64,000 nucleotides of DNA from Alistipes sp. ZOR0009 (GTDB lineage: Bacteria > Bacteroidota > Bacteroidia > Bacteroidales > ZOR0009): assembly GCF_000798815.1 (NCBI RefSeq), contig NZ_JTLD01000031.1, positions 1 through 64,000 of the forward strand, given 5' to 3'. The notes beneath the pieces are model-generated. The model made no database searches and was not told where the DNA came from. It worked only from the letters and a program-made list of their open reading frames with translations. The translations under genes and the position numbers were made by a program. This document shows positions 19,678-25,103 of the stretch, one piece after another (position 1 is the first letter of the stretch; every line of letters starts with the position of its first letter).

Positions 19678-21030
19678 ATGACTAAAAGAAATGTTATTAT
19701 TATCGGTGCCGCCGGTAGAGACTTTCACAACTTTAACACCTTTTTTCGGGATAATGAGCAGTACAATGTAGTTGCATTTACCGCTGCTCAGATTCCCGAT
19801 ATCGATGGAAGAGTTTACCCCTCAGAGCTAGCAGGAAAACTTTATCCCGCAGGTATTCCAATTCATCAGGAGCAGGATCTTCCTAAGCTCATCAAGGAGC
19901 TAAAAGCTGACGATTGCGTTTTCTCTTACAGCGATGTAACCTACAATAAGGTTATGGGAATGAGCGCGCTTGTTAATGCCAATGGCGCCAACTTCATGCT
20001 ACTCGGACCAAAGGAAACAATGATTAAAAGTACGAAGCCTGTGGTTGCCGTTGTTGCTACCCGTACCGGATGCGGCAAGTCTCAAACATCGCGTAAGGTG
20101 GTAGAGTATTTAATGGCAAAGGGATTGAAGGTTGTGGCCGTTCGTCACCCAATGCCTTACGGCAATCTTGTAGAGCAAAAGGTGCAACGCTTTGCAACGG
20201 TTGAAGATCTTAAAAAACATAAGTGTACGGTAGAAGAAATGGAGGAGTACGAGCCTCACGTAGTTAGAGGAAACGTAATTTATGCAGGCGTAGACTATGA
20301 AGCTATCCTCCGGGCAGCAGAAAACGATCCAGATGGCTGCGACGTTATCCTTTGGGATGGTGGAAATAACGACTTCGCCTTCTACAAGCCAGACCTAACT
20401 ATTACCGTGGCCGACCCACACCGTCCCGGCAACGAGCTAAGCTACTATCCAGGCGAGGTAAACCTTCGCATGGCCGAGGTAGTTGTTATCAATAAGATGG
20501 ATTCTGCCTCGCCAGAGGGAATTCAAACCGTACGCGAGAGCATCCGTAAAGTAAATCCCAACGCAATTGTTGTAGATGCCGCATCGCCAATTCAGGTAGA
20601 CAACCCAGAGCTAATCAGAGGCAAGCGCTGCCTAATCGTAGAGGATGGTCCAACATTAACCCACGGGGAGATGAAAATTGGAGCCGGAACCGTTGCCGCA
20701 CGCAAGTTTGGCGCTTCGGAAGAGGTGGATGCACGTCCATATATCGTTGGAAAGCTTAAGGAAACTTACGCAATCTATCCAAATATTGGCGCGATACTTC
20801 CAGCAATGGGTTACAGCGAGCAGCAGCTCAAGGATTTGGAAGAAACAATCAACAATACAAACTGCGACACTGTAATAATAGGTACGCCGATTGATTTACA
20901 GCGTATCATAAACATTAAGAAGCCTTGTACACGCGTTTACTACGATTTGGCTGAAATAGGCAAGCCAGATTTGAGTGGTGTACTAAGCCAATTTGTTACC
21001 GAGCGAGTAAACAAAAAGGTGATGGCTTAG
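19678..21030 (+). CDS. Cyclic 2,3-diphosphoglycerate synthetase homologue (P-loop GTPase-like)
   Basis: 450 residues. The N-terminal Rossmann-like part (1-125) begins KRNVIIIGAAGRDFHNFNTFF. A P-loop TRTGCGKSQTSRKVVEYL follows at about 129-146, then ILWDGGNNDFAFYKPDLTITVADPHRPG (about 222-249) and an NKMD motif (VVINKMDSA, about 269-277). This whole-length architecture is annotated as cyclic 2,3-diphosphoglycerate synthetase after the methanogen enzyme that makes the thermoprotectant cDPG. Bacterial homologues are widespread in anaerobes but I know of no demonstrated function, so cDPG synthesis here is only a family inference. Single gene with its own SD and terminator. Confidence 0.82.
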   Translation: MTKRNVIIIGAAGRDFHNFNTFFRDNEQYNVVAFTAAQIPDIDGRVYPSELAGKLYPAGIPIHQEQDLPKLIKELKADDCVFSYSDVTYNKVMGMSALVNANGANFMLLGPKETMIKSTKPVVAVVATRTGCGKSQTSRKVVEYLMAKGLKVVAVRHPMPYGNLVEQKVQRFATVEDLKKHKCTVEEMEEYEPHVVRGNVIYAGVDYEAILRAAENDPDGCDVILWDGGNNDFAFYKPDLTITVADPHRPGNELSYYPGEVNLRMAEVVVINKMDSASPEGIQTVRESIRKVNPNAIVVDAASPIQVDNPELIRGKRCLIVEDGPTLTHGEMKIGAGTVAARKFGASEEVDARPYIVGKLKETYAIYPNIGAILPAMGYSEQQLKDLEETINNTNCDTVIIGTPIDLQRIINIKKPCTRVYYDLAEIGKPDLSGVLSQFVTERVNKKVMA

Positions 21031-21917: not shown

Positions 21918-21949
21918 AAAGGCCCATAGAGTTTGCTCTATGGGCCTTT
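21918..21949 (+). terminator. Strong terminator between the secreted protein and the cyd operon
   Basis: Perfect 14-bp stem AAAGGCCCATAGAG / CTCTATGGGCCTTT with a TTTG loop, flanked by A and T tracts; probably bidirectional. Confidence 0.88.
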
Positions 21950-22015: not shown

Positions 22016-22138
22016 TTACTTCGCCTTGTCGGCAGGGTTTTTCTCGAACTTATGTATGGCCAGCTCGCTTAGCTTGTAGCTTAGGTATATCATTACCGGC
22101 CAGCTTAAGAACCAAAGAATTTCGCTTAGATATTCCAT
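22016..22138 (-). CDS. CydX-like single-helix small protein of the cytochrome bd operon
   Basis: A 40-codon ORF starts 11 bp after the cydB stop on the same strand. The peptide begins MEYLSEILWFLSWPVMIYL and ends KNPADKAK: one hydrophobic helix (about 4-25) with a charged C-terminal tail. This is the size, topology and genetic position of CydX/CydS-type subunits that stabilise the CydAB oxidase. Sequence identity to proteobacterial CydX is not evident, so subunit function is inferred from size, topology and context. Confidence 0.7.
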   Translation of the reverse strand: MEYLSEILWFLSWPVMIYLSYKLSELAIHKFEKNPADKAK

Positions 22139-22149
22139 CGCATTAATTG

Positions 22150-23301
22150 TTAGTAGGTGTGAGTTTCATCTTTCATCTCCTGAGCGGTAATCTGCTTCCT
22201 GTTCATGGCGCGCCAAGCATACCAAATGTAGGCAAGTACAAAAGGAACAAGAATGGAGACAATGCTCATGGCCTTAAGCGTGTATGGGCTCGAAGAGCTG
22301 TTTACTAAAGTAAGAGAACTTTGTAAATCGGCCTGCGAAGGGTAGTAAGCGGTGTTGTTGTAGCCAATGCTGAGCAGAAGTGCCAGCACGGTAAGTACGG
22401 TTCCTAGTCCTGCAAACCAGATTCCCTTAGTATTTTTTTGAGCGATTATGGTTGAGATGATGCCCCATAGTACCAAAACTACGCCAACTAGCAGAATAAC
22501 CAGCAAGATTGGCATCTGAATGAAGTTAAGGAAGTACTTGTATGGCTCCATGTATACAACTTGGGTGTCGGGGTTAACCGCAAAGCCCTTGCTTAGGAAA
22601 ATGGCAGCAAGGAAGCCCAAGAAAGTAAGTACAAATGGAATGGCATTGATAAGAACCTGCTTTTTGGAGCGCTCGAAGATGGTTTTATGATCGATGCTGT
22701 TGATTAGGTACAGCGCACCCAACGTACGAGCAAGGAAGAATACCGCCAAACCAAGAAGAACGTTACGGTAATCGGCCACGGCTTCTAGCCCATGCCAAGC
22801 GTTGGCCCAACGCGAGATGGTTGGGGCTCCAATATTAGCAAGGTTCATCTTATCTACAAAGAAGTTGCCTCCCGTAAATAGGGTTGCCACGGCAGCACCA
22901 AGCAGAATGGTTCCGAAGAATCCGTTAAGGAATAAAAATGCCTCGTAGGTTTTTTCGCCAAGGAAGTTGCCCGGTTTTTTTCTGTACTCGTACGAAACCG
23001 CTTGGATAACGAAGAAGAAAAGAATGGCCATCCATACCCAGTAGGCGCCACCAAAGCTGGTGGAGTAGAAAAGAGGGAAGGAGGCAAAGAAGGCACCACC
23101 AAAGGTAACCAGAGTGGTAAAGGTAAATTCCCACTTCCGACCAAGGGAGTTAACAATCATGGTCTTTTCCTCGTCAGTCTTACCAATTCGGAACATGAGC
23201 GTTTGGCCTCCCTGTACAAATAGAAGGAAAACCAAGATGCTTCCTAGAAGCGATACAATGAACCACCAGTATTGCTGTAAAAATGTATATGTAATTTCCA
23301 T
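22150..23301 (-). CDS. cydB: Cytochrome bd ubiquinol/menaquinol oxidase subunit II
   Basis: 383 residues with about eight to nine membrane helices. Begins MEITYTFLQQYWWFIVSLLGSILVFLLFVQGGQTL, typical for CydB; contains RKWEFTFTTLVTFGGAFFASFPLFY and YEYRKKPGN. CydB partners CydA in the inner membrane to reduce O2 to water without proton pumping. Directly follows cydA (1-bp gap) and precedes the CydX-like ORF. In an organism with HydF this oxidase likely provides O2 scavenging or microaerobic respiration. Confidence 0.95.
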   Translation of the reverse strand: MEITYTFLQQYWWFIVSLLGSILVFLLFVQGGQTLMFRIGKTDEEKTMIVNSLGRKWEFTFTTLVTFGGAFFASFPLFYSTSFGGAYWVWMAILFFFVIQAVSYEYRKKPGNFLGEKTYEAFLFLNGFFGTILLGAAVATLFTGGNFFVDKMNLANIGAPTISRWANAWHGLEAVADYRNVLLGLAVFFLARTLGALYLINSIDHKTIFERSKKQVLINAIPFVLTFLGFLAAIFLSKGFAVNPDTQVVYMEPYKYFLNFIQMPILLVILLVGVVLVLWGIISTIIAQKNTKGIWFAGLGTVLTVLALLLSIGYNNTAYYPSQADLQSSLTLVNSSSSPYTLKAMSIVSILVPFVLAYIWYAWRAMNRKQITAQEMKDETHTY

Positions 23302-23302
23302 A

Positions 23303-24862
23303 TTAATGTCCTCCTTCTGGTCCTTTTTTGATTTGCTTTAGCATGATGCGAATTTCGGCCACAAGCAGTAACGTGAAAATGGCTGCAAATAGCGAGAAGG
23401 TGATCATTACCGAGCTGGCATCGATGCGAGAAACAGCGGCAACGGTAGGCATGATATCTTGGATAACCCAAGGCTGGCGTCCAACCTCAGCAACGATCCA
23501 TCCAGACTGCGAAGCGATAAATGCGAGCAGGATGCTCCATGGACCAACCCACAAAAACCATTTTTGCTTGGTGATGGTATCCTTAAGTGCGAAGATAAGC
23601 GCAAGCAGGAAGAATAGGATGAAGAAAAATCCTAACGCAACCATTATATGGAAGGTGTAGAAGGTTAGCGGAACATGGGGGACTATTTCTTTTGGATTGT
23701 TTAGGTAGCCATACCCAAAGTTCTTGAAATTATCCGACAGGATCTTCTTTTCTACGGCCGCTTGCGTAGTATCACCAGCCTTAACTGCTTTACGATAGTT
23801 GCCAAAAGCTGTAATTGCGGCCTTACCGCTGGCAATTTTCTCTTCGGTTGATTGCGCAATGACGCTATTGCCTTCGGTATTGGTGTGCATGTAGCCACCT
23901 TTAATAATATCGTTGATGCCAGGAACGTAGGCGCTCGAATTTCCGAAGCTTAAGATTGAAAGGGCGCTAGGAATCTCAACTTTAAACAGGAATGGATCTT
24001 TATTATCGCCAACCTGCTTGCTGTGATCTAGAATTCCGAATGCAACAAGACCAGCATTTGCTTTACCATCGTAAAGACCTTCCATTGCAGCAAGCTTCAT
24101 GGGTTGTTTATCGGCTACTTGCTTTGCCGAACCATCGCCTGTTAGCGCAATAAACACCGAAGTGATTAATCCAAACACGGCGGCAACAACAATACTCTTC
24201 TTGGCAAATACAATATCCCTTTTCTTTAGAAGATACCAGCAGCTGATGCCAATAACAAAGGCGGCGGCGGTTACATATCCCGAAGAAATGGTGTGTAAAA
24301 ACTTATTCATGGCAACGGGCGAGAAGAGCACGTCCCAGAAGTTGGCCATTTCATTTCGCGCGGTGTCTGGGTTAAAAGTCATACCTGCAGGATACTGCAT
24401 CCAGGCGTTGGCAACCAAAATCCAGAGTGCCGAAAGGTTTGCGCCGATGGCCGTAAGCCAGCTCGATACGAGGTGGGTCTTCTTCCCAACCTTATTCCAT
24501 CCAAAAAACATGATGGCAATAAAGGTCGACTCCATGAAGAAGGCCATAATTCCTTCGATGGCAAGCGGTGCTCCGAAGATGTCTCCCACAAACCAGGAGT
24601 AGTTAGACCAGTTTGTGCCAAACTCAAATTCGAGGATAATGCCGGTTGCAACTCCAATGGCGAAGTTGATGCCAAAAAGAGTCATCCAAAATTTGGTTGT
24701 CTTTTTCCAAAATTCATCACCAGTCTTTACGTAGAAAGTTTCCATTATGGCAACCAAAAACGATAATCCTAAGGTGAGAGGTACAAATATCCAATGGTAC
24801 ATAGCAGTAAGAGCAAATTGCGCTCTCGACCAATCTACCAATGATACGTCGATGTTCTCCAT
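23303..24862 (-). CDS. cydA: Cytochrome bd ubiquinol/menaquinol oxidase subunit I
   Basis: 519 residues from MENIDVSLVD (24862); an upstream ATG at 24898 would run into DUF4492. Heme ligand His is H23 in QFALTAMYHWIFVPLTLG; the conserved GRQPWVI motif lies near the C-terminus (EVGRQPWVIQDIMPT). The region around residues 250-330, the quinol-binding Q-loop, is present and not shortened. Function: quinol oxidation and O2 reduction with hemes b558, b595 and d. It is the second gene of the DUF4492-cydA-cydB-cydX-like operon. Confidence 0.95.
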   Translation of the reverse strand: MENIDVSLVDWSRAQFALTAMYHWIFVPLTLGLSFLVAIMETFYVKTGDEFWKKTTKFWMTLFGINFAIGVATGIILEFEFGTNWSNYSWFVGDIFGAPLAIEGIMAFFMESTFIAIMFFGWNKVGKKTHLVSSWLTAIGANLSALWILVANAWMQYPAGMTFNPDTARNEMANFWDVLFSPVAMNKFLHTISSGYVTAAAFVIGISCWYLLKKRDIVFAKKSIVVAAVFGLITSVFIALTGDGSAKQVADKQPMKLAAMEGLYDGKANAGLVAFGILDHSKQVGDNKDPFLFKVEIPSALSILSFGNSSAYVPGINDIIKGGYMHTNTEGNSVIAQSTEEKIASGKAAITAFGNYRKAVKAGDTTQAAVEKKILSDNFKNFGYGYLNNPKEIVPHVPLTFYTFHIMVALGFFFILFFLLALIFALKDTITKQKWFLWVGPWSILLAFIASQSGWIVAEVGRQPWVIQDIMPTVAAVSRIDASSVMITFSLFAAIFTLLLVAEIRIMLKQIKKGPEGGH

Positions 24863-24869
24863 AGTTCTT

Positions 24870-25103
24870 CTATTTTTTAGGTGTCGTAAGCTGTTCAATT
24901 ACATACTCGCTGCGCTCTTTGTCGCTGCGGAAATTCTTTTTCAAGATGTTCGGAAAGAAAAAAATCTTCATAACAGCAAACATTATGAAGAGCTTAAGCA
25001 AAATTATAGCCCAAAGCGTCTTTCCCAACTGCATATTCCTAAATCCATCGTAGTAGAACCTGAATATTCTCATCAGCACGTTGCCTCTACTTGATGATTC
25101 CAT
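24870..25103 (-). CDS. DUF4492 family small membrane protein
   Basis: 77 residues; one membrane helix (about 30-50, LWAIILLKLFIMFAVMKIFFFP) between an Arg/Tyr-rich start (MRIFRFYYDGFRNM) and a charged C-terminus (FRSDKERSEYVIEQL). DUF4492 proteins lie immediately upstream of cydA in Bacteroidota and some Campylobacterota, implying a role in bd oxidase assembly or function that is not established. Gap to cydA is 7 bp, so it is cotranscribed. Confidence 0.88.
   Translation of the reverse strand: MESSSRGNVLMRIFRFYYDGFRNMQLGKTLWAIILLKLFIMFAVMKIFFFPNILKKNFRSDKERSEYVIEQLTTPKK

Follow-up and report, generated by a model that had tools for sequence, protein, structure and literature searches.

A small ORF behind cydB in Alistipes sp. 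ZOR0009 is, by sequence, a Bacteroidales counterpart of CydY/CioY

CydY, a small ORF that follows cydB in Epsilon- and Deltaproteobacteria with long-Q-loop operons, was described by Allen et al. (2014, PMC4325964), and it has been reported from these two groups only (PMC4325964, PMC11955535). CioY, the Campylobacter jejuni form of CydY, has 34 residues, is translated, and conserves a W, a P and a Y (Froschauer et al. 2025, PMC11955535). It co-immunoprecipitates with CioA and has been modelled like CydX (PMC11955535). The name CydY has been used twice, for the downstream-of-cydB peptide of Allen et al. (2014) and for E. coli YnhF/CydH, a small bd-I subunit that some papers call CydY (PMC8951039). 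CydH/YnhF is a different protein from the peptide considered here: it is encoded away from cydAB, occupies another cleft of CydA (TM1/TM9) and blocks an oxygen path.

The window, a stretch of 64,000 nucleotides of Alistipes sp. ZOR0009, carries a cydW-cydA-cydB-ORF operon with gaps of 7, 1 and 11 bp, in which the ORF is the final gene (Table 1). The cydB gene, which is encoded on the same strand, has its end at 22150; the distance from its stop to the ATG of the ORF is therefore exactly 11 bp, and the initial annotation had placed this 40-codon ORF and its start correctly. The start of cydA was inferred to be the ATG at 24862; the listed ORF instead opens with a TTG at 24898. The closest solved structure to the window CydA is E. 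coli CydA (6rko), with a full-length match, and its Q-loop has 146 residues between motifs, compared with 136 in the long-loop E. coli CydA by the same motif measure. The inverted repeat beyond the ORF is terminator-like on the + strand, and its T tail is weaker on the operon strand. The + strand at 19678-21030 encodes a 450-aa protein that, by sequence, we take to resemble the cyclic 2,3-diphosphoglycerate synthetase-like GTPase family. The DUF4492 protein is called CydW in Porphyromonas gingivalis (PMC4668044), and oxidases of this class may have it as a second small partner.

Table 1. Features of the cytochrome bd locus in the window.
Feature	Position	Strand	Remarks
cydY/cioY homologue, single-helix membrane peptide (predicted), 40 aa	22016..22138	-	ATG start, 40 codons, MEYLSEILWFLSWPVMIYLSYKLSELAIHKFEKNPADKAK
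cydB, cytochrome bd subunit II, 383 aa	22150..23301	-	PF02322 E 1.6e-67; TIGR00203
cydA, cytochrome bd subunit I, long Q-loop type	23303..24862	-	PF01654 E 5e-169
cydW, DUF4492 membrane protein upstream of cydA	24870..25103	-	PF14899 E 3e-31
14-bp inverted repeat	21918..21949		67 bp past ORF stop, between convergent genes

The ORF had been noted as missed by gene annotation, and neither Pfam nor NCBIfam has a model for it; no convincing match was found for its relatives in these collections either, and no relative of the peptide was found among PDB chain sequences. When Bacteroidales relatives were searched, as the initial annotation had proposed, homologues were found behind cydB across the order. 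The first search, of 60 relatives, gave homologues in congeneric species and across many further families, with nearly all good matches behind cydB. Of the 294 Bacteroidales genomes sampled, 118 had a match at E below 1e-3 to the A1 profile, built from 23 members (consensus MxYxxxILWLLSWPxLIxxSYxxxxxAxKKxEK), and 216 encode CydB. Where the cydB of the genome was among the matches listed, 83 of 85 peptide matches lay directly behind it, usually 60-120 bp beyond the end of the cydB Pfam match; the other two were weak second matches in genomes that also hold a proper copy. No other convincing copy was found in a wider-phylum sample (296 genomes, 129 with cydB). Genome G531 has two cydB genes, with a separate CydY-like peptide behind each. 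In G521, there is more than one cydB and there are two strong peptide matches, on different contigs.

Codon changes were compared between related genomes in 15 pairs, with each genus or family contributing a single pair. Single-base codon differences were synonymous in 130 cases and non-synonymous in 54, with ∼24% synonymous expected without constraint (binomial p ∼1e-40). Conservation of the frame had been set beforehand as a point on which the proposal could fail, and it held: the proposed frame was stop-free in 15/15 sequences checked and was the sole such frame, the other five being broken in most, and dN/dS was 0-0.35 in pairs with unsaturated dS. We conclude that the ORF is a real, conserved gene under strong purifying selection. 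A chance ORF, or a regulatory leader-type peptide in the 3′ region of cydB, might be thought of for a short, unannotated reading frame known from DNA alone, but the amino acids are conserved over many families and two phyla, the helix is conserved and selection is purifying. Moreover, a leader would have no target, because the operon runs into the inverted repeat and no same-strand gene lies downstream to be regulated. We regard this explanation as exceedingly improbable.

AlphaFold, given 23 homologues, predicted one helix comprising residues 3-33 of the peptide, with a core pLDDT >90, in line with the single-helix peptide first proposed. The peptides are short, and outside WxxSWPxxIxxSY they vary; the W, P and Y that mark CydY/CioY are conserved within one predicted hydrophobic helix. 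Of 42 peptides, 40 carry a net positive charge in the C-terminal part and 39 are neutral or negative in the N-terminal part. Judged by charge, the N-terminus probably lies outside and the basic C-terminus inside. This is opposite to the older topology of CydX, in which the C-terminus is outside (PMC4325964).

Campylobacterota genomes were reached via a 16S rRNA word, and cydB was found in 11 of them. A profile made solely from Bacteroidales sequences matched right behind cydB in 8 of the 11, C. jejuni included (E 3.6e-12 to 1.7e-4). The C. jejuni ORF behind cydB, MFHALFLLTWPLVIYLSYKFIMLNIKQLEKDNKL (34 residues), is the published CioY by species, place and length; the text of the paper prints no sequence. 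The window peptide and this ORF share 52% identity over 27 residues (pairwise E 3e-9), and hhalign of the Bacteroidales against the Campylobacterota group gave a probability of 98.5% (2e-15), so that the initial view that sequence similarity was not evident does not hold. DUF4492 was found just upstream of cydAB, on the same contig and strand, in 11/11 Campylobacterota, hence the whole cydW-A-B-Y operon is common to the two phyla. As with CydY/CioY, the window peptide is encoded directly behind cydB on the same strand, its partner CydA has a long Q-loop and DUF4492 upstream, and the family is mostly of 30-47 aa with one helix, the conserved W, P and Y, and detectable sequence homology. Unlike the Campylobacterota proteins, the Bacteroidales members have an added N-terminal turn (MxYxxxILW) and often SWP, and they are known in Bacteroidota from genes alone. 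On these sequence comparisons, the window ORF is the Bacteroidales counterpart of CydY/CioY.

The initial annotation had also suggested a Bacteroidota-specific protein. An independent Bacteroidota-only analogue of CydX/CydS, of separate origin and in the same genetic place by coincidence, would fit with the lack of a Pfam, NCBIfam or PDB chain match and of detectable CydX kinship, but it is very unlikely given the strong match to Campylobacterota, where the four-gene operon and the position within it are the same. Since it is homologous to Campylobacterota CydY/CioY, the peptide is not an invention of Bacteroidota only; besides, many Bacteroidales, including Bacteroides and Prevotella, are without it. 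No description of CydY in Bacteroidota was found in the open-access literature searched: the family is known and the phylum is new.

Like CydX (E. coli bd-I) and AppX, the window peptide comes after cydB, is of similar length, has a single helix (predicted) and a long-Q-loop partner; unlike them, it has other conserved residues and another tail charge. One ancestor for CydX, CydY and the window peptide, the latter being a truly divergent CydX, could account for the position of all three after cydB in long-Q-loop operons, and for a common W-x3-W helix start (LWFLSW vs MWYFAW), the sole stretch aligned by hhalign. However, that alignment reached a probability of 18% over 7-9 columns only, with no significant similarity. 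No CydX match was found for the peptide in Pfam/NCBIfam, it lacks the CydX motif YxxWxxGx15E/D and the conserved Y3/G9/E25 pattern (PMC4325964), and the charge differs at the helix ends. We consider common ancestry with CydX rather unlikely. The peptide also resembles CydS (Geobacillus) and CydZ (DUF2474, PF10617), small single-helix proteins that accompany CydAB. CydZ accompanies short-Q-loop CydA (PMC4325964), whereas the partner of the window peptide is a long-Q-loop CydA and hence of another enzyme class, and PF10617 had no match in the peptide or its relatives. The initial proposal of a CydX/CydS-type third subunit is retained in so far as the peptide is a small membrane protein of the third-subunit type in cytochrome bd; homology to CydX was tested and not found.

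The peptide is absent from part of the order. In Bacteroides ovatus, Parabacteroides distasonis and Prevotella nigrescens, cydW-A-B is present with no such ORF behind cydB. A search of plasmid records for distant carriers of cydB yielded named Bacteroides, Parabacteroides and Prevotella loci that lack the ORF, and none from Campylobacterota. The ORF was also missing behind cydB in 39 of another 40 loci that had no strong profile match; the fortieth (L282), interrupted by a contig end, does carry it. The earlier report that no CydX/Y/Z was found in P. gingivalis (PMC4668044) agrees with this loss. In one lineage without the peptide (L104), a 4Fe-4S ferredoxin-like ORF lies 200 bp after cydB. 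In a CydA+CydB tree, rooted on CydX-type enzymes and built with a quick, site-homogeneous model and SH-aLRT support only, Bacteroidales formed a single clade (support 100). There, 32 loci without the peptide formed one clade (99), sister (97) to the three-species clade of the window (100), and the gain and loss of the peptide took nine changes in all, mostly losses. We conclude that: i) the peptide is ancestral in Bacteroidales, and ii) it was lost once in the Bacteroides/Parabacteroides/Prevotella clade and about eight more times elsewhere. Because many intact Bacteroidales cydAB operons are without it, it is not indispensable for this enzyme type. A tree of CydB only, which put Campylobacterota inside Bacteroidales, was discounted for its extremely distant outgroup; with CydA added and CydX-type outgroups, Campylobacterota fell at or near the base. 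Since their placement shifts with genes and outgroup, no direction of transfer is claimed.

Nine changes of presence, mostly losses, are as seen in dispensable factors, and a translated assembly factor that sits transiently on CydAB, rather than a stoichiometric subunit, would suit this pattern. CioY, though, is recovered with CioA in co-immunoprecipitation, and its model places it in the CydX seat (PMC11955535); we judge a transient factor to be unlikely. The reading we favour, with a probability of about 0.88, is that the ORF encodes the Bacteroidales orthologue of CydY/CioY, a single-helix subunit that packs on CydA and aids assembly or stability. CydX sits near heme b558 and contacts TM1, 4, 5, 6 and 7 of CydA (PMC8951039). 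By homology to CioY, CydY would be the final product translated from the cydW-cydA-cydB-cydY operon; its helix would enter the cytoplasmic membrane, probably N-out/C-in by charge, and would pack on CydA in the CydX/CydS groove beside heme b558. There, it may help to assemble or stabilise the heme-bearing subunit, as CydX does.

CydA columns that are conserved in loci keeping the peptide and altered in the big loss clade were commonest in TM4-TM7, with approximate helix boundaries. E. coli positions 134 and 185 were altered in this clade and also in scattered losses. At the same columns, the ten scattered losses showed a weak excess that is not significant, since 32 of 300 sets of keepers drawn at random gave one as high; as the excess is weak, the change of CydA with loss is a lead only. 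It is conceivable, though doubtful, that the Bacteroides/Parabacteroides/Prevotella oxidase became independent of CydY and that CydX-groove positions of CydA changed with the loss (in E. coli numbering, A134 of TM4 and 185 of TM5, which adjoins the heme b558 ligand H186, together with 138 and 217), perhaps filling the emptied seat.

These results take CioY, a respiratory subunit that was recently validated, beyond Campylobacter into a second phylum. They also call into question the idea of Allen et al. (2014) that CydY originated within Epsilon/Deltaproteobacteria. Annotators gain a family for which Pfam and NCBIfam have no model. Gut Bacteroidales, much studied for their use of oxygen, have a cytochrome bd that has lost a subunit still present in close relatives, and enzymes with and without CydY can now be paired for direct comparison.
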